Shown piece after piece: positions 20,016 to 34,517 of a stretch of 64,000 nt of DNA. The stretch spans positions 8,354,501-8,418,500 of the forward strand of contig NZ_CP166850.1 of NCBI RefSeq assembly GCF_041346945.1, in the 5' to 3' direction. The notes beneath the pieces were generated by a model. That model ran no database searches. It worked only from the letters and a program-made list of their open reading frames with translations, and was not told where the DNA came from. The position numbers were made by a program, and so were the translations under genes. Within the stretch, counting starts at the first letter, position 1; every line of letters begins with the position of its first letter. Origin of the DNA: Amycolatopsis sp. cg9 (GTDB taxonomy: Bacteria; Actinomycetota; Actinomycetes; Mycobacteriales; Pseudonocardiaceae).

Positions 20016-22814
20016 GTGGTGGAACTGCGGGTGCTGGGTGCCGTCGAAGTCGTGGCCGGCGGGGTCCGGCTCGACATCGGGCACGCCCGGCAGCGGGACG
20101 TCCTGGCGGTGCTGTTGCTGGACGTCGGCCGGGCGGTGCCGATCGACCGGCTGATCGACCGCGTCTGGGGTGACCGGCCGCCGCGGCAGCCGAGGAACGC
20201 CCTCTACGCCTACGTCTCGCGGTTGCGCGGGCTGCTGGCTCCGCTGGGCGGGGTCACCATCGAACGCGACCGGAGCGGCTACGTCCTCGTCGCCGACCCG
20301 CTGACGGTCGACGTGCACCGGTTCGAGGCGCTGGTGCGGCGGGCGAGGGCGGCGGACGACCACTCGGCGCTCGCGCTGTACGACGAGGCGCTGGCCCTGT
20401 GGCGGGGCGAGCCGTTGAGCGAGCTGGACTCCACCTGGGTCGACGGCGTCCGCGCCGAGCTGGAGCGCAAGCGCGAAGCGGCCGAGCTGGACCGCGACGA
20501 CCTCCGGCTGCGGACCGGCGCCCACGCCGCGGTGCTCGCCCGGTCCGGGTCCGGCGGCGCGGCCGGGGAGCGCGCGGCGGCGCAGCGGATCGAGGCGCTC
20601 TACCTCGACGGACGCCCGGCCGACGCGCTGCGGGAGTACGAACGGGTCCGGTCACGGCTGGCCGACGAGCTCGGCGCCGACCCGGGTCCGCGCCTGCGCG
20701 GGGTGCACGAACGGATCCTGCGCGGCGGGCAGCCGCCGATCGCCCGGCAGCTCCCGGCCGCGCCGCCGTCCTTCACCGGGCGCGCCGGCGAACTCGCGGC
20801 GCTCGACCGGCTGCTCGCCGCCCCGGGCGCGGTGGCGGTCGTCTCCGGTGCCGGTGGCCTCGGGAAGACCTGGCTCGCCGTGCGGTGGGCGACCGGCCAC
20901 GCGAGCCGGTTCCCCGACGGGCAGCTCTACGCCGACCTCCGCGGTTTCGACCCGGCCCACGAACCGGTGCCCGCCGACCGAGCCCTGCGCGGCCTCCTCG
21001 GCGCGCTGGGCGTGGCCCCGGAGTCGATCCCGCCGGAACCGGACGCGCAAGCGGCGCTGTACCGGAGCCTCACCGCCCAGCGCCGGCTGCTCGTGCTGCT
21101 CGACAACGCCCGCGACACCGCGCACGTGACGCCGCTGCTCCCCGGCGGGTCCTCGTGTGCGGTCCTGATCACCAGCCGGCACGAGCTGGGCGGCCTGCTC
21201 ACCACCCGCGGCGCGGGCGCGCTGCCCCTGCGCACCCTGAACGAGCCCGAGGCTCGGGAACTGCTCGCGCACAAGCTGGGCGCGGCCCGGCTGGCGGCCG
21301 AACCCGAAGCCGCGCGGGAAATCCTGCGCCGGTGCGGCGGGCTGTCACTGGCGCTCGCGATCATCGCCGCCCGGGTCACGGCCCAGCCGGACCACCCGCT
21401 GGCCGCGCTCGCGGCCGAACTGCGCGAAAGCCGGCTGGACGCGTTGGACACCGGAGAGCTGTCCGCGAGCCTGCGCGCGGTGTTCGAGGTGTCCTACCGC
21501 TGCCTCGACGCCGGTGCCGCGACGGCGTTCCGCCTGCTCGGACCCGCTCCCGGCGGCGCCATCGGGCGCGCGGCCGCGACCGCGCTGGTCGGGGACGTCC
21601 GGCCGCTGCGCGCACTGTGCGCCGCGAACCTCCTGGCGGAGGATCCGCCGGGCCGGTTCCGGATGCACGACCTCGTCAAGCTCTACGCCGGCGAGCTCGC
21701 CGCCAAGACCGACGACCCCGGCACCCGGCTCGCCGCCTCGACCCGGCTGCTGGACCACTACCTGGGCTGGGCCTCGGCGGCCATGGACCGGTTCTCGCCC
21801 CACGAGCCGTACCTGCGCGAGCCCGCCGCGTGCCCGGCCGGGCCGCAGCCGGACTTCGCCGACGCCGGCGCCGCGAGGGCGTGGCTGGACGCCGAGCGGG
21901 CGACCATGCTGACGGCGGCCGTCCGTGCGCCGGCCGAACTGGCCGGGCACGTGGTCCGCCTGTCGGCGACGCTGTGGCGGTACCTGGAAGTCGCGGCGCT
22001 GAACCACGACGCGCTCGCCCTGCACTCGGCCGCGCTCGCCTCGACCCGCCCCGGCACGCCGGAACGGGGCTTCGCCGGCATGGCCGTCAGCACCGCCCTG
22101 ATCCAGCTCGGCCGCTACGACGAAGCCGCCGGCCACCTCGAACAAGCACTGTCCGTGGCCGTGGCGCGGGAAGACGACCTCCTCGAGAGCATGGTGCGCA
22201 ACGCCTTCGCGACGATCGACGACATGCGCGGCCGCCGCGCGGCGGCTCGGGAGCACCTCGGCCTCGCGCTCGCCGCCGCGCAGCGGACCGGCCACGCCCT
22301 GCTGGAAGGTATCGCCCTGTGCAACCTCGGCGAGCACCACCGCTGGTGCGGCGACTACGAAACGGCGGTCGGCTACCTGCAGCGCAGCGGACGGATCGCG
22401 CTGGACCTCGGGTCGGCCGGCCTCGGCGGACCGGTGCTGGCCACGCTGGGCGGCGCCTACGCCGGTCTCGGCCGCCACGAGGAGGCCGACGACCACTTCC
22501 GCCGCGCCCTGGAGTTCGCGAAGACCGGCCGAGACACGAACCTCGAAATCTCGGCTCTCAACGAATTCGCGGCCACGAAGACCGGCACCGAGGCGATCGC
22601 GTGGTACGAGCAGGCACTGGCACTCGCCGAGCGAACCGGTCACCTCCGCGAACGGGCCGTCGCCCACCACGGCTTGGGCCGGGCCCACCGGGCCGCCGGG
22701 AGCGGCTCCGAGGCGCAAGCGCACCTCGAAGCCGCCCTGACGGCGTACACCGAACTGGGCGGCCCGGGCGCCGACGAGGTGCGCGGCCTGCTCGACAGCC
22801 ACCGCTCGCCCTAG
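20016..22814 (+). CDS. AfsR-like BTAD-NB-ARC-TPR transcriptional regulator
   Basis: The 932-residue protein begins with an OmpR-like DNA-binding domain (about 1-95: LRVLGAVEVVAGGVRLDIG, PRQPRNALYAYVSRLRGLL). It continues with a bacterial transcriptional activation domain (about 96-245, ending ELGADPGPRLRGVHERIL), a STAND NTPase with Walker A SGAGGLGKTWLAV (Lys284), Walker B LLVLLDNA and the sensor ITSRHE, a winged-helix region with RMHDLVKLYA, and C-terminal TPRs (about 690-930, with repeats such as IALCNLGEHHRWCGDYETAV). These regulators activate secondary-metabolite or stress genes when the NTPase opens. The BTAD is about 15 residues shorter than usual around 170-190, where an HPLRERL-type helix is missing. 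A good GGAGGGG site supports the GTG start. Confidence 0.93.
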   Translation: MVELRVLGAVEVVAGGVRLDIGHARQRDVLAVLLLDVGRAVPIDRLIDRVWGDRPPRQPRNALYAYVSRLRGLLAPLGGVTIERDRSGYVLVADPLTVDVHRFEALVRRARAADDHSALALYDEALALWRGEPLSELDSTWVDGVRAELERKREAAELDRDDLRLRTGAHAAVLARSGSGGAAGERAAAQRIEALYLDGRPADALREYERVRSRLADELGADPGPRLRGVHERILRGGQPPIARQLPAAPPSFTGRAGELAALDRLLAAPGAVAVVSGAGGLGKTWLAVRWATGHASRFPDGQLYADLRGFDPAHEPVPADRALRGLLGALGVAPESIPPEPDAQAALYRSLTAQRRLLVLLDNARDTAHVTPLLPGGSSCAVLITSRHELGGLLTTRGAGALPLRTLNEPEARELLAHKLGAARLAAEPEAAREILRRCGGLSLALAIIAARVTAQPDHPLAALAAELRESRLDALDTGELSASLRAVFEVSYRCLDAGAATAFRLLGPAPGGAIGRAAATALVGDVRPLRALCAANLLAEDPPGRFRMHDLVKLYAGELAAKTDDPGTRLAASTRLLDHYLGWASAAMDRFSPHEPYLREPAACPAGPQPDFADAGAARAWLDAERATMLTAAVRAPAELAGHVVRLSATLWRYLEVAALNHDALALHSAALASTRPGTPERGFAGMAVSTALIQLGRYDEAAGHLEQALSVAVAREDDLLESMVRNAFATIDDMRGRRAAAREHLGLALAAAQRTGHALLEGIALCNLGEHHRWCGDYETAVGYLQRSGRIALDLGSAGLGGPVLATLGGAYAGLGRHEEADDHFRRALEFAKTGRDTNLEISALNEFAATKTGTEAIAWYEQALALAERTGHLRERAVAHHGLGRAHRAAGSGSEAQAHLEAALTAYTELGGPGADEVRGLLDSHRSP

Positions 22815-23731: not shown

Positions 23732-23747
23732 TGGCCCGCATCTTGCA
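23732..23747 (+). promoter_or_regulatory. Sigma-54 promoter P1
   Basis: TGGCCCG-CATC-TTGCA matches the -24/-12 consensus TGGCACG-N4-TTGCW at all invariant positions, with GG and GC 10 bases apart. The predicted start is near 23758, 30 bases before the ATG at 23788, which has a GGAAAGGG ribosome site. It shares CTGGCCCG-NN-TCTTGC with the two other sigma-54 sites in the window. Confidence 0.88.
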
Positions 23748-23787
23748 GGACGAGGGCCGACACCCGGAGCTTCGGAAAGGGTCGGCC

Positions 23788-25839
23788 ATGACGGCATCTC
23801 CCGCGGCGGTGCTCGAACACCGCGTTCCGTCCGGCGGCACGCGCGGCGGCAGGCTGGTCGTCGCGAAGCTGCCGCAGCTGGCGAACCACCGCGGCAGCGG
23901 GCCCGACCTGGTGCTGCGGTGGGGACCGATGCCGCCCGCCGCGACCGTCGACGTCGTCGTGCACCTGCACGGCTTCTCCGCGCGCGGGGCTCGGATGACG
24001 CTGCCCGGCGACAAGGAACCCCGTAGCGGGCTCGATCTGGCGGATCCCGCGAACCCGTCGGCGCGGGGCAGGCGCACACCCACGCTGCTCGTCCTCCCCC
24101 GCGGGCACTTCCACGGCGGGAAGTCCGGCAACGGCTACAGCTTCCCCGCGCTGACCTCGCCGGGAGCGCTCGCGCGCCTGGTCGGCGACGCGCTGCGCCG
24201 GTTCTCCGCCGCGACCGGCGTGCGTGCCACGCGCGGCAAGCTCATCCTCACCGCGCACTCCGGCGGCGGGGCGGCCCTCATGGCGATCCTGCGGCACGCC
24301 GACCCGGACGAAGTGCACGCGTTCGACGCGCTCTACACCGATCCGGCGCCGCTGATCGCCTGGGCGCGCAAGCGGAAGGCCGCCGGGACGGGGGCGCTGC
24401 GCGTGCTGTTCCGGCCGGGTGAGCCGACCGCCGCCGCCAGTCTGCGGGTCGCCGCCGCCCTCGCGCCGGGGACGCGGACCTTCCGGGTGGAGCGCACGCG
24501 CGTCGCGCACGACGACATCGCGCGGACTTTCGGGTGGCGGCTGCTCGCCGATCCCGGTGCGGACCTGCCGGAGACCGGCCGGCCCGGCGGGCCGGAGCAC
24601 GAGACGCCGTCGCCGGGCGAAGCGCAGCCGCTGTGCGAAGCGATCGCCAAGGTGGCGCGCGAGCAGTTCCGGCGCTGGCGGCCGGGCGGCGGGACCGCGC
24701 TGACGGAGACCGACGCGGCGGCCTCGGCGATCCTGCGCGAGTACTACCGCGAGGGGATCGGCGCGACGGTGACCGACGCCCAGCTGCGGAGCACGACCTA
24801 CCAGGCGGGCCACCCGTGGAGCGCGGTGTTCGTGTCGTACGCGCTGCGGAAGGCCGGGGCCGGGTCCGCGTTCACCTATTCGGCGGCGCACCAGTCCTAC
24901 ATCCGGGCGGCGCGGGCCAACCGGCTGCGCCGGGACGCCGCGAACCCGTTCTGGGCGTTCCGGGCCACCGAAGTCGCGCCGCGGGCCGGCGACCTCGTGT
25001 GCGCGTCGCGGCAGGACAGCGGCGCGACCTACGACAACATCGGGGACGCGCGGTACCGGGCCACGCACTGCGACGTGGTGACCGACGTGCGGCCGGGCCG
25101 GATCCGGGTGGTCGGCGGCAACGTCGGCCAGACGGTCGGCGAGAAGTCGCTGACCACGCGGCCGGACGGGAAGCTCGACCTCACCGGCGCGCAGAGCCGG
25201 TTCTTCGCGGTCATCACCTGCCGCCGCGGCACCCCGCGGCAACCGCCGCCGGCGACCGGCCGGGACGCCCGGATCCGGCGGGTGATGGACCTGCTCGTGC
25301 ACACCTACCACTACCCGGTCGCCGGGGCGGCCGGCGTCGTGGGCAACCTGATCGCCGAGTCGGGGGTGCAGCCGGACCGGATCGAGGGCAGCCGGGAGGA
25401 CACCCCGATGCGGTCCGCCGACTTCTCCGGCCGGGTCCGGGACTTCACGCCGGACGAGGTGCGGGACCGGAGCACGACCGCGCGCACCGGGCCGCGGCTG
25501 CCGGGCATCGGGCTCGCGCAGTGGACGAGCGCGAACCGCCGGGCGGGGTTGTTCCGGCACAGCTTCCGCGGCCGGGTACCGGGCTCGGCCATTCTGTCCG
25601 ATTTGGACGCTCAGGTGGACTACCTGGTCACCGAGCTGCGCCGGGACTACGCCGCCGTCGACGCGGTGCTGCGCTCCCCCGGCGTGACCGCCGACCGGGC
25701 GGCCGACGTGGTGGTGCTGCGGTTCGAACGACCGGCCGCGGTGCTGAACCGGCCGGTGGGCGATCCGGGCGTCCAGGAGGTGCTCACCCGTCGCCGGGCG
25801 CACGCCGCGCGGGCGCTCGCGATCCACCGGTCTCGATGA
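23788..25839 (+). CDS. Hydrolase-DUF2272-lysozyme multidomain protein
   Basis: Three modules are visible in 683 residues. Residues 40-265 are an alpha/beta-hydrolase: oxyanion-type HLHGFSARG, then the nucleophile elbow TAHSGGGAAL. Residues 285-470 look like a DUF2272/CHAP-related domain: HPWSAVFVSYALRKAGAG, RAGDLVCASRQDS, THCDVVTDV and VVGGNVGQTVGEKSL. Residues 480-630 match the phage tail lysozyme type: VVGNLIAESGVQPDRIEG and LPGIGLAQWTSANRR. No signal peptide or membrane helix is present. A frame extension to 23728 is rejected because it contains promoter P1. Predicted activity is ester or peptide cleavage plus peptidoglycan cutting. It is the first gene of the rightward sigma-54 unit that ends with the enhancer-binding protein. 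Confidence 0.88.
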   Translation: MTASPAAVLEHRVPSGGTRGGRLVVAKLPQLANHRGSGPDLVLRWGPMPPAATVDVVVHLHGFSARGARMTLPGDKEPRSGLDLADPANPSARGRRTPTLLVLPRGHFHGGKSGNGYSFPALTSPGALARLVGDALRRFSAATGVRATRGKLILTAHSGGGAALMAILRHADPDEVHAFDALYTDPAPLIAWARKRKAAGTGALRVLFRPGEPTAAASLRVAAALAPGTRTFRVERTRVAHDDIARTFGWRLLADPGADLPETGRPGGPEHETPSPGEAQPLCEAIAKVAREQFRRWRPGGGTALTETDAAASAILREYYREGIGATVTDAQLRSTTYQAGHPWSAVFVSYALRKAGAGSAFTYSAAHQSYIRAARANRLRRDAANPFWAFRATEVAPRAGDLVCASRQDSGATYDNIGDARYRATHCDVVTDVRPGRIRVVGGNVGQTVGEKSLTTRPDGKLDLTGAQSRFFAVITCRRGTPRQPPPATGRDARIRRVMDLLVHTYHYPVAGAAGVVGNLIAESGVQPDRIEGSREDTPMRSADFSGRVRDFTPDEVRDRSTTARTGPRLPGIGLAQWTSANRRAGLFRHSFRGRVPGSAILSDLDAQVDYLVTELRRDYAAVDAVLRSPGVTADRAADVVVLRFERPAAVLNRPVGDPGVQEVLTRRRAHAARALAIHRSR

Positions 25840-25850
25840 AGGGACGTGCT

Positions 25851-26327
25851 GTGAAGGATTTCTGGTTCGAAATATTCTCCACCGAAGACGGCGACTACGG
25901 CTGGGTGTGCTTCTCGGGCCGCCGCGGCAAGCGGCGTGAACTGGCCCGGTCGAGCCGGCTCTACAAGAGCGTCAAGAAGACCCGCCGAGCGATCGGGAAG
26001 GTGCGGGGCGCCGGGATCGGCCGCCCGTTCACCCTGCCGCGCACCTCGTTCGAGTTCGTTCCCGGGGTGGTGCCGCTGACCAGCCGAGAAGCGCCGTCGC
26101 GCAGCCGGCGCGGCGCGGCGAAGGGTCTGGTCGGCCCCCGGCCGGGACCGGCCGCCGGGCCAGCACCAGCACCGGGCGCCGGGACACAGCCGCCGGCAAC
26201 CCCCGCAGCGGACGCCGGGCAGCCGCAGGCGGAACCGGCGGCCGGCTCCGGGCCATCGGAAGCGCCGTCGCGGCAGGGAAAGCCGCGGCCCACGCGCACC
26301 CGGAAGCCGAAGGTGACCGCGCAGTGA
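25851..26327 (+). CDS. Small basic protein, DUF1508/YegP-like N-terminus
   Basis: The 158-residue protein has a compact N-terminal domain (KDFWFEIFSTEDGDYGWVCF, LARSSRLYKSVKKTRRAIGK) that resembles one DUF1508 (YegP) repeat: a beta hairpin followed by a YKS-containing helix. The rest is a disordered Pro/Ala/Gly tail ending in basic PRPTRTRKPKVTAQ. I chose the GTG at 25851, which has AAGGGA 6 bases upstream. An ATG at 25836 overlaps the preceding stop (ATGA) and would add 5 residues. It lies between the lysozyme-type protein and the enhancer-binding protein in one operon. Function unknown; the basic tail could bind nucleic acid or cell wall. Confidence 0.72.
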   Translation: MKDFWFEIFSTEDGDYGWVCFSGRRGKRRELARSSRLYKSVKKTRRAIGKVRGAGIGRPFTLPRTSFEFVPGVVPLTSREAPSRSRRGAAKGLVGPRPGPAAGPAPAPGAGTQPPATPAADAGQPQAEPAAGSGPSEAPSRQGKPRPTRTRKPKVTAQ

Positions 26328-26346
26328 TCCGCGCGCGGCGCCGGCG

Positions 26347-27579
<1,233 letters not shown>

Positions 27580-28293
27580 GGCGGAGGAAGTTCTCGCCCA
27601 GCACCAGGGCCTCCGCCGCCGGCGGCAGCCGCAGCAGCCGGACCTTCGCCAGCTCCAGGCCGGGGTGCAGCCACGGTCCGTCCGACCCGAACAGCACCTT
27701 CTCCGGGCCGGCCAGCCCGATCGCGCGCTCCAGCAGGTCGAACCGGCGCACCCCGGACGTGTCGGTGTGCACGTTGGGGTGTTCGGCGAGCACGCCGGTG
27801 AACGCGAGCTGCGCGCTCCAGTCGTCGGCGAAGCTGCCCAGGTGCGGCACGATGAAGTCGACGCCGGGGAACTCGGTCGCGAGCAGCTCGGCCGCGGCCG
27901 CCTCGCCGGCGACGTCGTACAGCACCGGCAGCCGGAACTCCGCCGCGACCTCGCAGATCTCCCGGCTGATCCGGGCGTCGTGGCGGTGCACCTTGATGCC
28001 GCAGAACCCGTACCCGGTCACGGCGCGGTGCACCAGCGAGCGGACCCGGCCGCGGTCGCGCTCGGCGTGCACGAACGCGAAGCCGAAGAACCGGCCGGGC
28101 CGCGCGGCGACGATCCGGCCGACCGCTTCGTTGGCGGCGGCGTAGTCGGAGTGGAAGGCGGCGAACAGCGTCGAAGCGCCGATCCCCGCCTCGGCGCAGC
28201 GCCGCAGGTAGCGGGACAGCGGTGCCGAGGTGTCCCACGGCCCGCTGAACCCGTCTCCGGGACCCGCGTGGCAATGCGCGTCGATGACCCGCA

Positions 28294-30084
28294 TCAGGAG
28301 CGGTAGGCACCGTGGCGCTCGCGCACCGGCGCCGGCGCGGCGTCGCGGCGGGTCAGGTCCACCCCGCTCACCGCGCGGTAGGCGTAGATGTAGCCCTTCA
28401 CCTCCGCGCGGAAGTACCGGGCCCACTGCGCCGCGTTCTCCGGGTTGATCACCACGCTCCACGCGGCGAACCGGATGCTGAGCAGCAGCTGCTCGCCGAA
28501 CACCGCCAGGTCGCGGAAGTGCTGCACCGACACGTCCGTCCAGTGCTGCAGCCGGTTCATCGCCTCGACCCGGTCCATCCACCCTTCCGGGTAGGCCACC
28601 ATGGTCCGGGTCGCCAGGAAGTCCTTCAGCTCCGGGCGGGCCAGGATCCATTCGGCCATCAGCATCTCGTGGCGCGCGGTCCACGGCAGGTCGCCGTACT
28701 GGTTGTGCGCGCCCTGGGTCAGCAGCAGGTGCGTCTCCTTCAACGCGTTCAGCATCCCGAACCCGTCGGCGATGACCGTGGTGTCGTCGTCGCACCGGTA
28801 GAACACTTCGCACAGCGACAGGAGGTTGTGGAACGCGTCGAGGAACCGCGACCGGCTGTCCGCGCCCCGCACGGGCGGGCCCTGCCGGGTCGAGAGCTCC
28901 AGCCCGTAGGCGTGGTCGTACTCGTAGGCCCGGCGGGACATCGTGAGCCGGTGCTGCTCGTCCTGGATCCAGCCCCACACGAGGTTGTTGAGCGGCCGCA
29001 GCGGATCGATGTCCAGGCCGGCCAGCGGATCCCGGCGCGGGGAGCCCGCCGTCCGGTTCTGGAACCGCCAGCTGATCGCCCGCAACGCCTGCAGCGGTCC
29101 CGCTTCGTCGGTCCAGAACGACCAGATCAACTCGAGGAAGCACGGGTGCACGAGCTTGTCGGCCAGGATCCCGAAGCAGGCTTCCGCGTCCTCGTCGTCG
29201 TTCGCCTTCCCCGTCACCGCCACGTCCCGCAGCTGGAGCCGGATCAGCCCGAGGTAGGGCAGGACGTCCAGGCTGCCCCCGCCGTTGCCGCGGTCGACCT
29301 GGACGAGGTAGTCGCGGAACTCCCGCTCGATGTCGTTCTGGCTGACCGTCCGGTTGAGCCGGCGGGACTCCTCGGCGACGTCGACCCCGTCGAACACCCG
29401 GCGCCGGTCGACCCCGCAGTTGACCATCAGGAAGACCTCGGCCGCGGCCTTGAGCAGGCGGTAGCGGTTGACGTTCGGGAACGGCAGCCCGGCGCGGCGG
29501 TCGGCCTTGACCAGCTTGTGCCGTTCGCGCCCGCTGAGCTGCCCGGGCGCGTCACCGCACATCACCTGGTCGACGAACCGGCTGAAGCTCTCGAAGCCGA
29601 TCGCGGTGGTGCTGTTGCGGATCGCGACCCACAGCGACTGGTCTTCGGTGGGCGGCACCTGGGCGCGCTTGAGGGTGACGGCGACGTCGTCGCCGGCCGC
29701 GAACGGGCGCGGCGCGACCTCGATGGGCCCGGCTTCGGCGACGAGCTCGGGTTCCGCGCTCACCCCCGGACCGTCGACGACCGGGACCAGCCGGAGTTCG
29801 ACGGTCCACGAGCCGACCGCCAGCGGCGTGGTGTCGAGCGTGGCCCGCAGCACCACGTCGTCGTCCGCGGCACCGTCCACCCGGTCGCCGATGACGTTGG
29901 TGGCGCCGAGCAGGGCGATCCGGGTGTCCTGTTCGGACAGCACCACCGGGCCGGTGACCGTCCAGGACACCTCGTAGGTGCGGTTCCCGTTCGACAGGGT
30001 GGCTTCGAGCAGCACGATGCCGCCCGCGGTGGTGCGCATCGGCTGCGCCGTGAGCACGAGCGTGGGTCGGTCATTGACGTCCAC
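28294..30084 (-). CDS. Unknown 596-residue protein of the sigma-54 operon
   Basis: I do not recognise a family. Residues 1-130 look like a beta-rich Ig-like domain (LVLTAQPMRTTAGGIVLLEA, SWTVELRLVPVVDG). The remaining 460 residues are mostly helical and carry conserved-looking segments such as RLLKAAAEVFLMVNCGV, FLELIWSFWTDEAGPLQA, DPLRPLNNLVWGWIQDEQHR and WTARHEMLMAEWILARPELK. No signal peptide, membrane helix or catalytic signature is seen. It overlaps the metallopeptidase-like gene by 14 bases and the amidohydrolase by 1, so all are co-translated. A structural or scaffold role is a guess. Confidence 0.85.
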   Translation of the reverse strand: MDVNDRPTLVLTAQPMRTTAGGIVLLEATLSNGNRTYEVSWTVTGPVVLSEQDTRIALLGATNVIGDRVDGAADDDVVLRATLDTTPLAVGSWTVELRLVPVVDGPGVSAEPELVAEAGPIEVAPRPFAAGDDVAVTLKRAQVPPTEDQSLWVAIRNSTTAIGFESFSRFVDQVMCGDAPGQLSGRERHKLVKADRRAGLPFPNVNRYRLLKAAAEVFLMVNCGVDRRRVFDGVDVAEESRRLNRTVSQNDIEREFRDYLVQVDRGNGGGSLDVLPYLGLIRLQLRDVAVTGKANDDEDAEACFGILADKLVHPCFLELIWSFWTDEAGPLQALRAISWRFQNRTAGSPRRDPLAGLDIDPLRPLNNLVWGWIQDEQHRLTMSRRAYEYDHAYGLELSTRQGPPVRGADSRSRFLDAFHNLLSLCEVFYRCDDDTTVIADGFGMLNALKETHLLLTQGAHNQYGDLPWTARHEMLMAEWILARPELKDFLATRTMVAYPEGWMDRVEAMNRLQHWTDVSVQHFRDLAVFGEQLLLSIRFAAWSVVINPENAAQWARYFRAEVKGYIYAYRAVSGVDLTRRDAAPAPVRERHGAYRS

Positions 30085-31420
30085 GGTGTTCCTCCAAGTG
30101 CGTTTCGCTGGCTGGCTGGGGTGGTGCCGGGAGCACGGGCTGCCCGGCGAACAGGCGGGTGGTGGCGCGGGCCGTCTCGAGCGTGCTGGTGACGGCCCAC
30201 GTGCCGATGAGGCGGCGCAGCGTCGCGCTCTCCCGTTCCGGGGAGAGGAGCCCGTCGGCCCGCGCCTGGCCGAGCACGGCGAACGCGAGCATCGGCGGTG
30301 CGGCCGCCATCCGGTCCGGGTCCGCCTGCCAGGACCAGAAGCGCCGCAGCAGGGCCGGGCGGGTGCGGTCCGGGCTGCCGAGGGCGTCGCCGAGCGTCCG
30401 GCCCCGCAGCCGGGGCGGGCGGTGGCCGGTGACGAACCCGACGAGGTCCGGGATGTCCGCGCGCAGCCCGGCGAGGGTGCCGGCGAGTTCGCGCCGCAGC
30501 CCGGTCAGCGGGTACATGGACTGCCAGGTCGCGGCCAGCCCGGACCACTGCGGATCCGGGTAGAAGCGGTCGCCGACGGCGCAGCTGAGCAGCACCCGCA
30601 GCCACGGGACCGGGTGGGGGTCGTCGTCGGGTGGCTTGAACACGAAGCCCCGCGGCAGGCTCACCAGGCCGAGCAGGCCGAGCGTCGAGCCGATCCCGAC
30701 CTTCGCGACCGCCCAGACGTCGGCGACGATCTCGCTGAGCCAAGTCCGCCACAGCTCCCGCACCTGGTCGCCGGCCCGCCACGGCGTCGCGTCGAGCCGG
30801 GCCCGCAGCGACTCGACGAGCCCGAGCAGCGCCGCGCCCTGGTGGCCGGCCTCGTGGCCGAGGGTCGAGGCGACCCCGAAGCCGATCCGTTCGCGCGGGA
30901 TGCGCAGGAGGGCGACCGGGTTGTCGCCCCCGCCCGGGAGCCGGGTGCGGGCCCGGCGGATCGAGCCGCCCATCCCGCGGTGGAACGAGCAGACAACGGG
31001 CGGCCCCTCGATGGGCGTGCCGGGCAGCCGCAGCGCGTCCGCGGCGGCCAGGTCGAGCCCGGAGAGCAGGACGCCGTTGTCGTGCTCGCTGCGCTGGGTG
31101 ATCACCTCCGAGAACAGGTCGAACTGGGTCAGCGCGTTCTGGAACGCCAGGCGCAGCACCCAGAACCGGCGCTGCTGCTCGGCGGCGGGGACGGCCGAGC
31201 CGTCGCCGCGCAGCCAGCGCAGGAACTCCTCCGCCCGGCGGCGTACCGCACGCCTGCCCGCGATCAGGTACTGCTCGATCCCCGACAGCGCGGCGGGCGA
31301 CAGCGCCGCCGCCGCGACGCAGGTTTCCTGGAGCACGAACGGTTCGACCGCCGCGAGCCGGGTCAGCAGCGCGCGGGTCTCCTGTTCGAGCAGCCAGGTG
31401 GCGGACACGGGAGCGGCCAT
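30071..31420 (-). CDS. Metallopeptidase-like protein with HEAGH motif
   Basis: The 449-residue protein has a zincin motif: H189-E190-A-G-H193 in LGHEAGHQGAALL and a plausible third ligand E230 in LSEIVADVWAVAKVG, the usual HExxH plus E-x-x-A/D arrangement of gluzincins. The N-terminal 170 residues are helical (FVLQETCVAAAALSPAALSG, LRLAFQNALTQFDLFSEVI), and the C-terminal half is helical as well. There is no signal peptide, so it works in the cytosol or is released otherwise. I chose the ATG at 31420, 7 bases after the preceding stop; the frame extends upstream into the previous gene. Peptidase activity is inferred from the motif. Confidence 0.82.
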   Translation of the reverse strand: MAAPVSATWLLEQETRALLTRLAAVEPFVLQETCVAAAALSPAALSGIEQYLIAGRRAVRRRAEEFLRWLRGDGSAVPAAEQQRRFWVLRLAFQNALTQFDLFSEVITQRSEHDNGVLLSGLDLAAADALRLPGTPIEGPPVVCSFHRGMGGSIRRARTRLPGGGDNPVALLRIPRERIGFGVASTLGHEAGHQGAALLGLVESLRARLDATPWRAGDQVRELWRTWLSEIVADVWAVAKVGIGSTLGLLGLVSLPRGFVFKPPDDDPHPVPWLRVLLSCAVGDRFYPDPQWSGLAATWQSMYPLTGLRRELAGTLAGLRADIPDLVGFVTGHRPPRLRGRTLGDALGSPDRTRPALLRRFWSWQADPDRMAAAPPMLAFAVLGQARADGLLSPERESATLRRLIGTWAVTSTLETARATTRLFAGQPVLPAPPQPASETHLEEHRGRQ

Positions 31421-31427
31421 GGTCGCC

Positions 31428-33161
31428 TCACAGACCGCCGTCGCGGGAGCGGCCCCGCCCGCCGTGGCCGTTGGCGCTGTACGCGTACTCGCCCTGCGAA
31501 GCCGCGCCGTCACCGGCCGGTTGCGCGGGTCCCGCGGCGGGCGCGGGATCGGGGGCGTCGATCGGCACGGCGACCCACCGGAAGCCGGGCTGCGGCGGCC
31601 CGGGTGGCTGCGGCGGCCCGGCCGGCTGCGCCGGTTCGGGCGTGGGCTCGGGCTCCGGGCCGGTCGGGTACGGGTACCCGTAGCCGTAGTGGCTGTACCG
31701 GGGGCGGTAACCGAAACCGCGGTAGCCGTGGCTCCGCCGGTAAGGGCTGCCGTAGCGACGGCGTGAGCTGCGGTAGCGGCGGCCGTAGAACCGGCGGGTC
31801 ATCGGGGAGAGCCGGCGGAGGCCGCGGCGGTACAGCGACGGCGCGAACCGGCGCGCGGCCCGGAACAGGCTGAGCTCGCCGACCAGCCGCGGCGAGCCAC
31901 CGGACGGCGCGGAGGCCACGTCCTGCGCCGCCGCCGAAGTCAGCCGGACGATCCGGCGGGCCGTCTCGAACTCCTCCTGCTCCTGGGTAAGGGCCATCTC
32001 GCCTTCGAACAGCGACCCGGCCGCGGTGCCGAGCGCCGAACCGACCTGGGTGCCGATGCCGGGTGCGATCGCGGTGCCGAGGGCCCCGCCGAGCGCCGGC
32101 AGCGCCGACTTGGCCAGCGGCTTGACCGCCGCGATCAGCGCGCGGCCCTGCGGGGAGTTCGCCGCGCCGCGCACGCCCTGCACGACCTTGCCGACCGCGT
32201 TCACCAGCCCGCCGAGGAAGTGCTCGAGCTCCTGCTCGCTGGTGACCTCCATCAGGTGCCCGGCGAACTCGGCTTCCTGCGCCGGCGACAGCGCCAGCTC
32301 GTCGTGCTCGGCTTCCTGGCCGAGGACGCGCTTGAGGATGTTGCCGAGGAACTGGTCCTCCGCTTCCCCTTCGCCCTCGCCTTCTCCCTCGGCTTCGCCG
32401 TAGCCCGACTCGTACTCGCCCTCGGCCTCGCCTTCCTTCATCAGGCCGCCCAGCAGGCCGCCGAGCACCTTGCCCGCGAGCGGGATGAGCGGCAGGAACC
32501 GCTCTTCCTCGGCCTCTCCGGACTCCTGCTGCTCGCCCTCGCCGTACTCGCCGTGGCCTTGCTCGTATTCGCCGTAACCCTCCTGCTCGTACTCGCCGTA
32601 GCCCTCGGCCTCGTACGGTGCTTCGCCGTGGCCGCCGTATTCGTCGTCGTCGGGCCAGCGGCCCCGCCGGCCGCGCCGCTCGTGCTCGGCCTCGCCGTAC
32701 TCCGCCGCCGGGGATTCTGTTTCGAACATGCGGGATTCCTTTCCTGGTCGTGGCGCGAGCCCGGGCACGAACTCGCGCGCCGCCGCTTCGACCGCCGCCG
32801 CCACACCGTGCGGCGTGCGCGCCGCCCGGCCGGCCGCCGCTTCGGCGAACCGGACGAACCGGCGGGCGAGCTCGTGGTCGCGGTCTTCGGCGCTCATACC
32901 TTCGAGCGCCAGGCCGTACACGTGGGGTGCGGGCACGCCACCGGCACCGACCAGCGCGGTCAGCGTCGGCACGGTCCGCAGGGCGGTCGTCGTCAGCACG
33001 CCGGTGAGCGCGCGGCTCGCGTCGCGCGAGAGCCGCCCGCCGCCCGCGCGGGAGACCAGTTCGCCGACGAACCCCGCGAGCCCGGCCCGGCTGGTCACGT
33101 CGAGCAGCCGGGCTGCGGCTTCGAGGTCCCGGGTTCCGGTCTCCCACTGGGTTCTGTGCAC
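31428..33161 (-). CDS. Glu/Gly-rich repeat protein with duplicated helical domain
   Basis: The 577-residue product has this order: helical domain 1 (about 10-138: LDVTSRAGLAGFVGELVSRA, ARRFVRFAEAAAGRA), an acidic low-complexity stretch (145-275) with repeats such as GYGEYEQE, helical domain 2 (about 295-435: MEVTSEQELEHFLGGLVNAV, LGTAIAPGIGTQVGSALG, ARRIVRLTSAAAQDV), an Arg/Tyr-rich segment (RRYRSSRRRYGSPYRRSHGY) and a Pro-rich tail. The two helical domains look like copies of each other. Similar Glu/Gly-rich proteins exist in many proteobacteria with no known function (recalled, not searched). GTG start 2 bases after the start predicted from promoter P2, so leaderless. A second, strong start lies at 32729. 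Confidence 0.85.
   Translation of the reverse strand: MHRTQWETGTRDLEAAARLLDVTSRAGLAGFVGELVSRAGGGRLSRDASRALTGVLTTTALRTVPTLTALVGAGGVPAPHVYGLALEGMSAEDRDHELARRFVRFAEAAAGRAARTPHGVAAAVEAAAREFVPGLAPRPGKESRMFETESPAAEYGEAEHERRGRRGRWPDDDEYGGHGEAPYEAEGYGEYEQEGYGEYEQGHGEYGEGEQQESGEAEEERFLPLIPLAGKVLGGLLGGLMKEGEAEGEYESGYGEAEGEGEGEGEAEDQFLGNILKRVLGQEAEHDELALSPAQEAEFAGHLMEVTSEQELEHFLGGLVNAVGKVVQGVRGAANSPQGRALIAAVKPLAKSALPALGGALGTAIAPGIGTQVGSALGTAAGSLFEGEMALTQEQEEFETARRIVRLTSAAAQDVASAPSGGSPRLVGELSLFRAARRFAPSLYRRGLRRLSPMTRRFYGRRYRSSRRRYGSPYRRSHGYRGFGYRPRYSHYGYGYPYPTGPEPEPTPEPAQPAGPPQPPGPPQPGFRWVAVPIDAPDPAPAAGPAQPAGDGAASQGEYAYSANGHGGRGRSRDGGL
32737..32745 (-). promoter_or_regulatory. Internal Shine-Dalgarno and start in the Glu/Gly-rich gene
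   Basis: AGGAAAGGA lies 7 bases before an in-frame ATG (32729, MFETESPAAEYG), exactly between helical domain 1 and the acidic repeats. The full-length GTG start at 33161 has no ribosome site. The gene may therefore make a 577- and a 433-residue form. Confidence 0.55.
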
Positions 33162-33173
33162 GTCCGTGGACGT

Positions 33174-33189
33174 TGCAAGAACCGGGCCA
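33174..33189 (-). promoter_or_regulatory. Sigma-54 promoter P2
   Basis: On the minus strand TGGCCCG-GTTC-TTGCA gives a perfect GG-N10-GC sigma-54 element. It lies 10 bases past the rpoN stop codon and drives the operon 33161 to 27473. The predicted start, about 33163, is 2 bases from the GTG of the first gene. Confidence 0.9.
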
Positions 33190-33198
33190 GCCCGGCGG

Positions 33199-34458
33199 TC
33201 AGCGCAGGGCGGTGGAGGCGAACCCGAGCCGCGCGCGGTGCTTGGCGACCGTCCGGCGCGCGATCGGGTAGCCGGCCGCGCACAGCAGGTCGGCGAGGCG
33301 CTGGTCCGACACCGGGCCGTCCGCCGCGGCCAGCAGCCGGCGCAGTTCCCCGTCGACGCCGCCGCTGACGCCGAAGAACTTCGCCAGCGGCACGATCGTC
33401 CGGTCCGGCAGCAGCACGAACTTGTCGGCGACCGCGCGGCTCACCGTGGACTCGTGCAGGCCGAGCTCGGCGGCGGCCTCGGCGCGGGTCAGCGGCCTCA
33501 GCGCGGCGGGGCCGTCGCGCAGGAAGTCCTTCTGCCGCTCGACGGCGAGTTCGACGACGCGGCGCAGCGTCTCCCAGCGGTCGCGCAGCAGCGCGAGGAA
33601 CGACCGGGCCTGCGGCAGCTGACCGCGGTCCCGCCGGATCCGCAGGCGGTTCATCGCCGGTTCGACCAGGGTCACGGCGAACTCGCCGTCGATTTCCCCG
33701 TGCGGCCGGACGAGCACGTCGGGCACCACGTAACCGGTGCGGGGCGCGGCGTTGCCGTCGAACGCCGGGTACGGGCGCAGCCGCGCCTTGACGAACTCCA
33801 GCACGCGCCGGACTTCGTCCCGGGACACCGACAAGGCCGTCGCGATCGCCGCGAAGTGGCCTTTCGCGAGCGCCGGCAGGTGGCCGGCGATGACCGCCCG
33901 CGCGAGGAGCAGCGTCGCGTCGTCGCAGTCGAGCGCGTCCAGCTGGCGCAGCAGGCACTCGGTGACCCCGCCGGCGCCGACGCCGGGCGGCCCGACCCGC
34001 CGGATCACCTCGGCCACCCGGGCCACCACCGCCTCCGGCGCGCCGAGCTCGGCGGCGACCTGCGCGCACGACCGGTCGAGGAACCCGTGCTCGTCGAGGC
34101 TGCCGACCAGGTATTCGGCCACGGCCACCTCGGCGGTCCCGACCTCGGCCCGCACGGCCCGCAGCAGTGCGTGGGTGTCGGGTTCGGCGGCGGCGGCCTC
34201 GGGCCGGGCGGCGAACGGGCCGGGCCCGGGGCCGCCGGCCGGCGGCGCGCACACCGGGCACCGCGTGCGCCAGCGGCCCGCACAGACCGGGCATTCGCTC
34301 TCCAGCCGTTCGAGCGCGGTGTTGCCCAGCAGCTCGTCTTCGATCGCGGCCTGCATCGCGTCGTACGGGAGCATCAGCATCTCGCCGAACACCACCAGCG
34401 CCGGCGACACCTCGAGACCGAGCCTCGGCTCCATGCCGAGTTCGAGTGAGAACACCAC
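33199..34458 (-). CDS. rpoN: RNA polymerase sigma-54 factor with zinc-ribbon insert
   Basis: The 419-residue protein has all RpoN parts. Region I is about 1-50 (PRLGLEVSPALVVFGEMLML, PYDAMQAAIEDELL, where the Gln-rich LxxLxLTPQL pattern is replaced by related hydrophobic residues). The core-binding domain is about 95-290. The HTH is near 320-345 (LGLHESTVSRAVADKFV). The RpoN box, near 400-413, reads ARRTVAKHRARLG and contacts the -24 element. Between region I and the core domain, where acidic region II normally lies, is a CxxC-x7-CxxC zinc-ribbon (Cys56, 59, 67, 70), which I do not know from other RpoN proteins. I chose GTG 34458, with GGGGAG 6 bases upstream. Sigma-54 is generally reported absent from Actinobacteria. 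It carries its own sigma-54 promoter (P3), so it is autoregulated. Confidence 0.95.
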   Translation of the reverse strand: MVFSLELGMEPRLGLEVSPALVVFGEMLMLPYDAMQAAIEDELLGNTALERLESECPVCAGRWRTRCPVCAPPAGGPGPGPFAARPEAAAAEPDTHALLRAVRAEVGTAEVAVAEYLVGSLDEHGFLDRSCAQVAAELGAPEAVVARVAEVIRRVGPPGVGAGGVTECLLRQLDALDCDDATLLLARAVIAGHLPALAKGHFAAIATALSVSRDEVRRVLEFVKARLRPYPAFDGNAAPRTGYVVPDVLVRPHGEIDGEFAVTLVEPAMNRLRIRRDRGQLPQARSFLALLRDRWETLRRVVELAVERQKDFLRDGPAALRPLTRAEAAAELGLHESTVSRAVADKFVLLPDRTIVPLAKFFGVSGGVDGELRRLLAAADGPVSDQRLADLLCAAGYPIARRTVAKHRARLGFASTALR

Positions 34459-34501
34459 CTCAACCTCCCCCACCAGGGCGACTTGGGTTTCGTGCCTCCT
34501 C

Positions 34502-34517
34502 AGCAAGAATCGGGCCA
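34502..34517 (-). promoter_or_regulatory. Sigma-54 promoter P3 (rpoN autoregulation)
   Basis: TGGCCCG-ATTC-TTGCT on the minus strand gives a start near 34491 and a 33-base leader to rpoN with its GGGGAG ribosome site. It shares CTGGCCCG-NN-TCTTGC with P1 and P2. I see no housekeeping promoter for rpoN in the 163-bp gap, but basal transcription must come from somewhere. Confidence 0.88.

Follow-up and report, generated by a model that had tools for sequence, protein, structure and literature searches.

A 64,000-nucleotide stretch of Amycolatopsis sp. cg9 (contig NZ_CP166850.1, positions 8,354,501 to 8,418,500), hereafter the window, contains a cassette of eight genes that encodes a sigma factor of the sigma-54 type, RpoN, together with an AAA+ sigma-54 activator. 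The genes form three groups, each of which starts beside a sequence resembling a sigma-54 promoter: hyd, yeg and the activator gene follow one another on the plus strand, and rpoN, EG, unk6, unk5 and an amidohydrolase gene are tightly packed on the minus strand. From the comparisons set out below, we consider it highly probable that the three elements, P1, P2 and P3, are -24/-12 promoters, and that the cassette, with its own sigma-54 and activator, is private and self-amplifying once triggered. Taking the parts separately, it is very likely that the predicted sigma-54-type promoters are functional, and the cassette is probably a private, self-amplifying regulon. The promoter reading is strongly supported by two observations: an equivalent element precedes EG in all 13 cassettes found, and rpoN and unk6 co-occur.

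P1 lies on the plus strand at 23732..23747 (TGGCCCGCATCTTGCA), and P2 and P3 lie on the minus strand at 33174..33189 (TGGCCCGGTTCTTGCA) and 34502..34517 (TGGCCCGATTCTTGCT). The initial annotation had given these coordinates and strands and the common form TGGCCCG-NN-TCTTGC(A/T), all of which we confirmed. As it also claimed, the three agree with the sigma-54 consensus TGGCACGN4TTGCW, with GG-N10-GC spacing. Each has a single mismatch to this consensus, and no other site in the window has so few. Each precedes a cassette gene, P1 hyd, P2 EG and P3 rpoN, and the predicted transcription starts at 23758, 33163 and 34491 are consistent with the spacing. The expected leaders are 30 nt to the ATG at 23788 for P1 and 33 nt to the GTG at 34458 for P3; the predicted P2 start is 2 nt from the GTG at 33161, making this transcript leaderless.

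The pattern CTGGCCCGNNTCTTGCW has three exact matches in the window, and neither tight pattern occurred in 60 first-order Markov simulations of it. Allowing up to three mismatches, CTGGCCCGNNTCTTGCW was found 15 times against 4.6 expected, a count reached by none of 100 shuffles. The general consensus TGGCACGN4TTGCW was not over-represented as a whole: with up to two mismatches it matched 7 times, against an expectation of 7.08, and 54 shuffles reached that count. The genome-wide search proposed with the annotation showed the tight pattern to be rare: TGGCCCGNNTCTTGCW has four exact matches in the 10.6-Mb genome, three of which are P1–P3. With up to two mismatches there was again no excess (247 against 481 for a reversed control), and the looser pattern TGGCMCRNNNCTTGCW gave four exact matches against three for its reversed control. 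It is thus the placement of the sites that is unusual, not their total number.

The sigma factor and its activator

The rpoN gene (33199..34458, minus strand) encodes a sigma-54 with a core-binding domain, a DNA-binding domain, an RpoN box and a diverged region I. The core-binding and DNA-binding domains score well over their Pfam cut-offs (PF04963, 116.3 bits against 22.9; PF04552, 98.2 against 22.8), and the genome contains a single PF04552 match. All 22 close relatives compared keep the RpoN box ARRTVAKHR and the motif HESTVSR of the -12 helix-turn-helix (HTH) unchanged. Two CxxC pairs (CPVCAGRWRTRCPVC; 34249..34293, minus strand) separate region I from the core-binding domain and form a predicted zinc ribbon, whose cysteines C60, C63, C71 and C74 are invariant in the same number of close relatives (22/22) and kept in all nine aligned RpoN proteins of the cassette loci.

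Two CxxC pairs within the first 140 residues were also found in four sigma-54 proteins of Chloroflexota (L006–L009) and in the cassettes L157 and L158, with one pair in L159. None of 18 other sigma-54 proteins has two pairs, and one of them (L043) has one. The double pair may mark a distinct branch of sigma-54 proteins. In a tree of 40 rows the cassette RpoN proteins form a clade (98/96) that is joined by the Kouleothrix protein (98/95), and the whole CxxC group (99/95) stands apart from other sigma-54 proteins of Actinomycetota. The tree is midpoint-rooted and includes the CxxC columns; 7 of its 37 inner branches are open, the rows L158 and L011 are long and 11 rows deviate in composition. 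The Chloroflexota rows came from a genome-contig search with the window's RpoN, which gave seven loci, none titled actinobacterial, and they were therefore selected by similarity to that protein. A plasmid origin of RpoN was set aside: all of the 211 plasmid records matched by tblastn were below 60% identity, and the best 20 of them were proteobacterial, at 31–33%. Among 396 Actinomycetota genomes sampled, rpoN-like genes occur in 15 besides that of the window (DNA-binding domain at 126–197 bits); those of G520, G553, G574, G418, G628, G660, G735, G753 and others are distinct from the cassette clade.

The Kouleothrix sigma-54 gene (L006) is adjacent to an NtrC-type activator gene. Its product shares the two CxxC pairs and HESTVSR with the cassette RpoN and is its neighbour in the tree. 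Unlike the cassette activator, that of L006 carries both a receiver domain and a Fis-type HTH, and no other cassette gene was matched on the 11.7-kb contig.

The cassette activator, a predicted enhancer-binding protein (26347..27579, plus strand), has Walker A and B motifs, GAFTGA and the AAA+ lid. It is the genome's best PF00158 match at 194 bits; five more proteins pass the low family cut-off, at 24–35 bits. Walker A, Walker B and GAFTGA are intact in all nine aligned activators. The best matches among PDB sequences are NifA, NtrC-family proteins and FleQ, and the NCBIfam equivalog cut-offs are not reached (RtcR, 258.9 against 650; NifA, 255.5 against 528.85). The PADLOC matches of the activator are of the RtcR AAA+ type and were not read as a sign of a role in defence.

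Pfam finds no C-terminal HTH in the activators of the window, L059 and L157. In the alignment, six remote cassettes have an HTH-like C-terminal stretch that is lacking in the window, L053 and L059, so that the domain was likely lost in the group of cassettes closest to the window. The HTH of the remote cassettes appears itself to be diverged: Pfam recognises a Fis-type HTH in L056 (22.1 bits, cut-off 22), as it does in the Chloroflexota L006 (24.0), and not in L052, L055 or L060. No Pfam receiver domain was found in the window's activator or in the other cassette activators tested. The protein therefore resembles the group 5 bacterial enhancer-binding proteins (bEBPs), which a passage of PMC7175178 describes as lacking a DNA-binding domain (FlgR, CtcC), with FleT lacking both the R and D domains. 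As in FlgR and CtcC, it ends after the AAA+ lid with no HTH found; unlike them, its N-terminus contains no receiver recognised by Pfam, and its HTH was probably lost.

Distribution of the cassette and conservation of its sites

Relatives of the cassette were sought in 390 genomes of the family, 298 of the order and 394 of the class. In the family, PF04552 matched in 17 genomes, strongly in ten (58–100 bits) and at 21–25 bits in seven. An unk6 score of at least 412 bits was reached in exactly the ten genomes with a strong RpoN; these ten are mutually related and do not count as ten separate events. Besides the window, each of the nine strong loci (L052–L060) contains EG, unk6, unk5, the activator gene and rpoN. 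The amidohydrolase gene is present in six of the nine (not found in L056–L058), and hyd and yeg in three (L053, L054 and L059). The order search matched five genomes, two of them strongly including that of the window, and gave L157 (from G955), which has hyd, yeg and the amidohydrolase gene. The class search matched 11 genomes, three closely including the window's, and gave L158, with the amidohydrolase gene, and L159, in which the stretch examined has neither hyd and yeg nor the amidohydrolase gene. There are thus 13 cassettes: the window, L052–L060 and L157–L159. RpoN identity to the window's protein is 95% in Amycolatopsis lexingtonensis and 94% in A. solani, and falls to 29% across the cassettes.

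Distant homologues of unk6 (28–34% identity) occur in seven other family genomes, at 42–93 bits, and in 8 of the 394 class genomes. We rejected these as further sigma-54 cassettes: nine such loci (L153–L156, L160–L164) gave no match to rpoN, the activator, EG or unk5, and only L164 matched the N-terminus of hyd. They suggest a broader protein system in which sigma-54 was not detected. Of the four that were read gene by gene (L153, L161, L163 and L164), two (L163 and L164) contain SARP-like genes by eye, and L163 has an OmpA domain.

A GG-N10-GC element lies 27–86 nt before the EG start in all 13 cassettes, one of the elements being weak. Its score is reached by just one or two windows of the locus in 12 cassettes and by 5 of 470 in L052, counts that include the EG site itself and other cassette sites. 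The scoring matrix and its threshold were fixed before L157–L159 were obtained, and all three of these show the EG site. Sites before rpoN and hyd are best conserved in the close clade, which consists of the window, L053, L054, L059 and probably L157. An rpoN site is present in the window, L053, L054, L059 and L060 and, weaker, in L157, so that all five close-clade cassettes have one. The hyd site, equivalent to P1, is present in all four close-clade cassettes with sequence at this position (the L157 contig ends before it); it is the same in L053 and L054 and reads TGGCCCC in L059. In L159 (8982-10340), a second sigma-54-like site precedes unk6, with rpoN downstream, an alternative route to possible autoregulation.

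The leaderless start proposed for P2 is supported by comparison of the cassettes. In the remote cassettes, L059 and L157, EG begins behind a ribosome site, 55–86 nt from the first base of the promoter element. The equivalent codon is ACC or ATC in the window, L053 and L054, the ancestral EG start codon having been lost in these three Amycolatopsis cassettes; they have instead a GTG at 27–28 nt from the first base of the element, which places it one or two bases past the predicted transcript start. This supports the replacement of the ancestral start by the GTG at the predicted transcript start.

The sites also differ between clades at their fifth position. All ten far-clade sites read (one each in L052, L055–L058 and L158, two each in L060 and L159) have A there, as TGGCA or CGGCA, and 13 of the 14 close-clade sites have C. 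The RpoN box reads AKHR in the close clade and AKYR, NKYR or VKYR in the others. We hypothesise that the change in the site and the change in the RpoN box are one correlated change on one branch.

Competing explanations and a model for control

A number of findings weigh against the reading of P1–P3 as promoters of a private, closed loop. With respect to the protein, PF00309 gives no report for region I of the window's RpoN, and TIGR02395 scores 204.9 bits, under its cut-off of 277.35. Among 22 RpoN members, however, PF00309 reports 15 at E<=10 (best 0.0022), and a profile of region I aligned to canonical region I with probability 95 and an E-value of 3e-8, calculated for a single comparison. 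Region I, the part of sigma-54 proteins that interacts with the activator, is by these measures diverged, and the protein is classed as a diverged sigma-54 member and not as an equivalog by the TIGR02395 rule. With respect to the sites, the scoring matrix was written by hand, with a listing threshold of 13 bits. The EG element of L052 is weak (CGGCATGCGATGTGCA, 11.6 bits), that of L158 has a TGTGCA -12 box and lies 86 nt from the start, and the rpoN site of L157, at 11.3 bits, is below the threshold. The pattern TGGCMCRNNNCTTGCW has matches in 8 of the 10 cassette genomes and recovers cassette sites in seven (G000, G109, G132, G250, G213, G215 and G217); it misses the deviating sites in the other three (G018, G143 and G276), and in several genomes its totals equal or fall below those of the reversed control (for example, 6 against 7 in G213).

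The remaining points concern the loop. No rpoN site was found in L052, L055 or L158. In L056–L058, rpoN directly follows the activator gene and there is no site upstream of the latter, and no site lies directly before the activator gene in L052, L055–L058, L158, L159 or L165 (the activator locus of G276, the genome of L060), the start positions being approximate. A closed loop also requires a starter, and none was found. It may be that P1–P3 are sigma-54 promoters and yet no closed loop exists, rpoN and the activator gene being transcribed mainly from ordinary sigma-70-type promoters, with P1 and P3 adding to this supply. The remote cassettes fit such an arrangement, and a basal supply would be needed to start any loop; the conservation of the rpoN and hyd sites throughout the close clade speaks against it, and we consider it rather unlikely, though the most serious of the alternatives. 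Because most remote cassettes show no site in front of rpoN or of the activator gene, the closed loop is best seen as a property of the close clade. The description of the regulon as autoregulated is accordingly supported for that clade, by the position of P3 before rpoN and of P1 before hyd-yeg-activator and by their conservation, and does not extend to the cassette in general.

A second alternative, implied for Actinomycetota by the 2025 survey PMC12316311, is that RpoN and its sites are a functionless, decaying relic of a transferred system. A passage of that survey dismisses three actinobacterial RpoN matches because they did not score significantly on all three domains, and the protein does diverge fast, with 29–37% identity between clades. 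Yet the frames are open, the DNA-contact and activator motifs are invariant, the promoters are kept over great divergence, and rpoN and unk6 mark the same ten genomes, so that we judge decay very improbable.

The fourth genomic match to TGGCCCGNNTCTTGCW (G000 C1:3536864-3536879) lies 57 nt before an oxidoreductase gene. It was set aside as a further regulon member. The segment was matched in 80 of 80 Amycolatopsis genomes, and the 30 best loci were compared: in the 27 without detected rpoN, the exact 16-mer is kept in 12 and GG-N10-GC in 26. Its conservation thus requires no RpoN and cannot be taken as a sign of a sigma-54 promoter, although genomes that have RpoN may use it; it is identical in G109 and G132. 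At the tight consensus the data hence support a self-contained regulon, as was claimed, with weaker sites possible. A P3-like 16-mer at L005 6853-6880, flanked by a gene that by eye is GlxA/AraC-like and by one resembling oxidoreductase genes, is conserved across Amycolatopsis in which no rpoN was found. That P1–P3 are targets of a different regulator, or copies of a dispersed repeat, and only resemble sigma-54 promoters is suggested by this near-identical conserved 16-mer but is hardly credible, given that the element before EG always holds its GG-N10-GC spacing even where its other letters have changed.

Under the sigma-54 reading, P1 would drive hyd-yeg-activator, P3 rpoN, and P2 EG-unk6-unk5-amidohydrolase. 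The activator, with no recognisable DNA-binding domain, would act on the holoenzyme from solution, which would be tolerable because the cassette sites are nearly the only tight ones. Activator and RpoN would reinforce each other in a positive loop, silent until set going by a signal or by basal transcription. A Chloroflexota-type donor is the likely source of the sigma factor, which would then have spread along with the cassette. In its fullest form, a scenario for and against which we find the evidence evenly balanced, a zinc-ribbon sigma-54 of Chloroflexota entered the actinomycetes, which otherwise have no sigma-54, as the private sigma factor of a single travelling cassette, and on the Amycolatopsis–Lentzea branch the cassette became a self-amplifying, all-or-none switch, the activator shedding its DNA-binding domain, TGGCACG changing to TGGCCCG as Tyr gave way to His in the RpoN box, and the main operon becoming leaderless.

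Actinobacteria are stated to lack a sigma-54 system in a passage of PMC3162934. The text of PMC3665592 says the same and reports that gene clusters of actinobacteria contain putative sigma-54 promoters. A section of PMC12316311 reports RpoN matches in 4 of 173 Actinomycetota, one of them a misclassified Bacillota, and treats the phylum as effectively without functional RpoN, proposing high GC content as the reason. The cassette, as predicted, contradicts the general statement that Actinomycetota lack functional RpoN: it combines a coherent sigma-54 set with conserved predicted promoters in a GC-rich actinomycete, and a single other exact tight match in 10.6 Mb implies that high GC alone does not spoil specificity. 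Our searches of the open-licence PMC literature listed no actinomycete sigma-54 cassette or CxxC sigma-54. With canonical RpoN systems (NtrC, NifA and PspF) the cassette shares the core-binding and DNA-binding domains, the RpoN box, a GAFTGA activator and predicted -24/-12 promoters; unlike them it occurs in actinomycetes, has CxxC pairs after region I, comprises at strict consensus a regulon of one cassette and, in the close clade, includes both regulator genes in that regulon. A sigma-54 promoter before rpoN is reported for several classes in the same section of PMC12316311; here the activator gene also lies behind such a site. As a minimal system of one RpoN, one clear activator and three predicted promoters, it is suited to testing one-regulon control, activation without enhancer sites and a self-amplifying loop, and the two CxxC pairs offer a possible marker for its sigma-54 branch.

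Other cassette genes and a neighbouring regulator

The likely output of the cassette is an envelope- or peptidoglycan-acting module, because its genes encode lysozyme-type domains, a predicted metallopeptidase and an amidohydrolase-like protein. On the plus strand, hyd (23788..25839) has an N-terminal region of 311 residues without a Pfam match, followed by DUF2272 and phage-tail lysozyme domains, and overlaps by ATGA with yeg (25836..26327), a small open reading frame with no family match. On the minus strand, EG (31428..33161), the first gene after P2, is Glu/Gly-rich and by eye glycine-zipper-like. It is followed by unk6 (30071..31420), a predicted zinc metallopeptidase with a conserved HE.GHQ and, further on, SEI.AD; by unk5 (28294..30084), which is conserved and has no relative found in Pfam, NCBIfam or PDB sequences; and by the gene for an amidohydrolase-like protein (PF04909; 27473..28294), the last of the predicted P2 operon. 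Neither PDB profile searches for unk5 and unk6 nor a search of the PDB with hyd gave a useful match, and weak PHROG tail and endolysin matches of EG and hyd were not used as evidence. Just outside the cassette, at 20016-22814 on the plus strand of the window, is a gene for a large regulator that by eye is SARP/AfsR-like, the C-terminal part of which is also found beside the L053 cassette.

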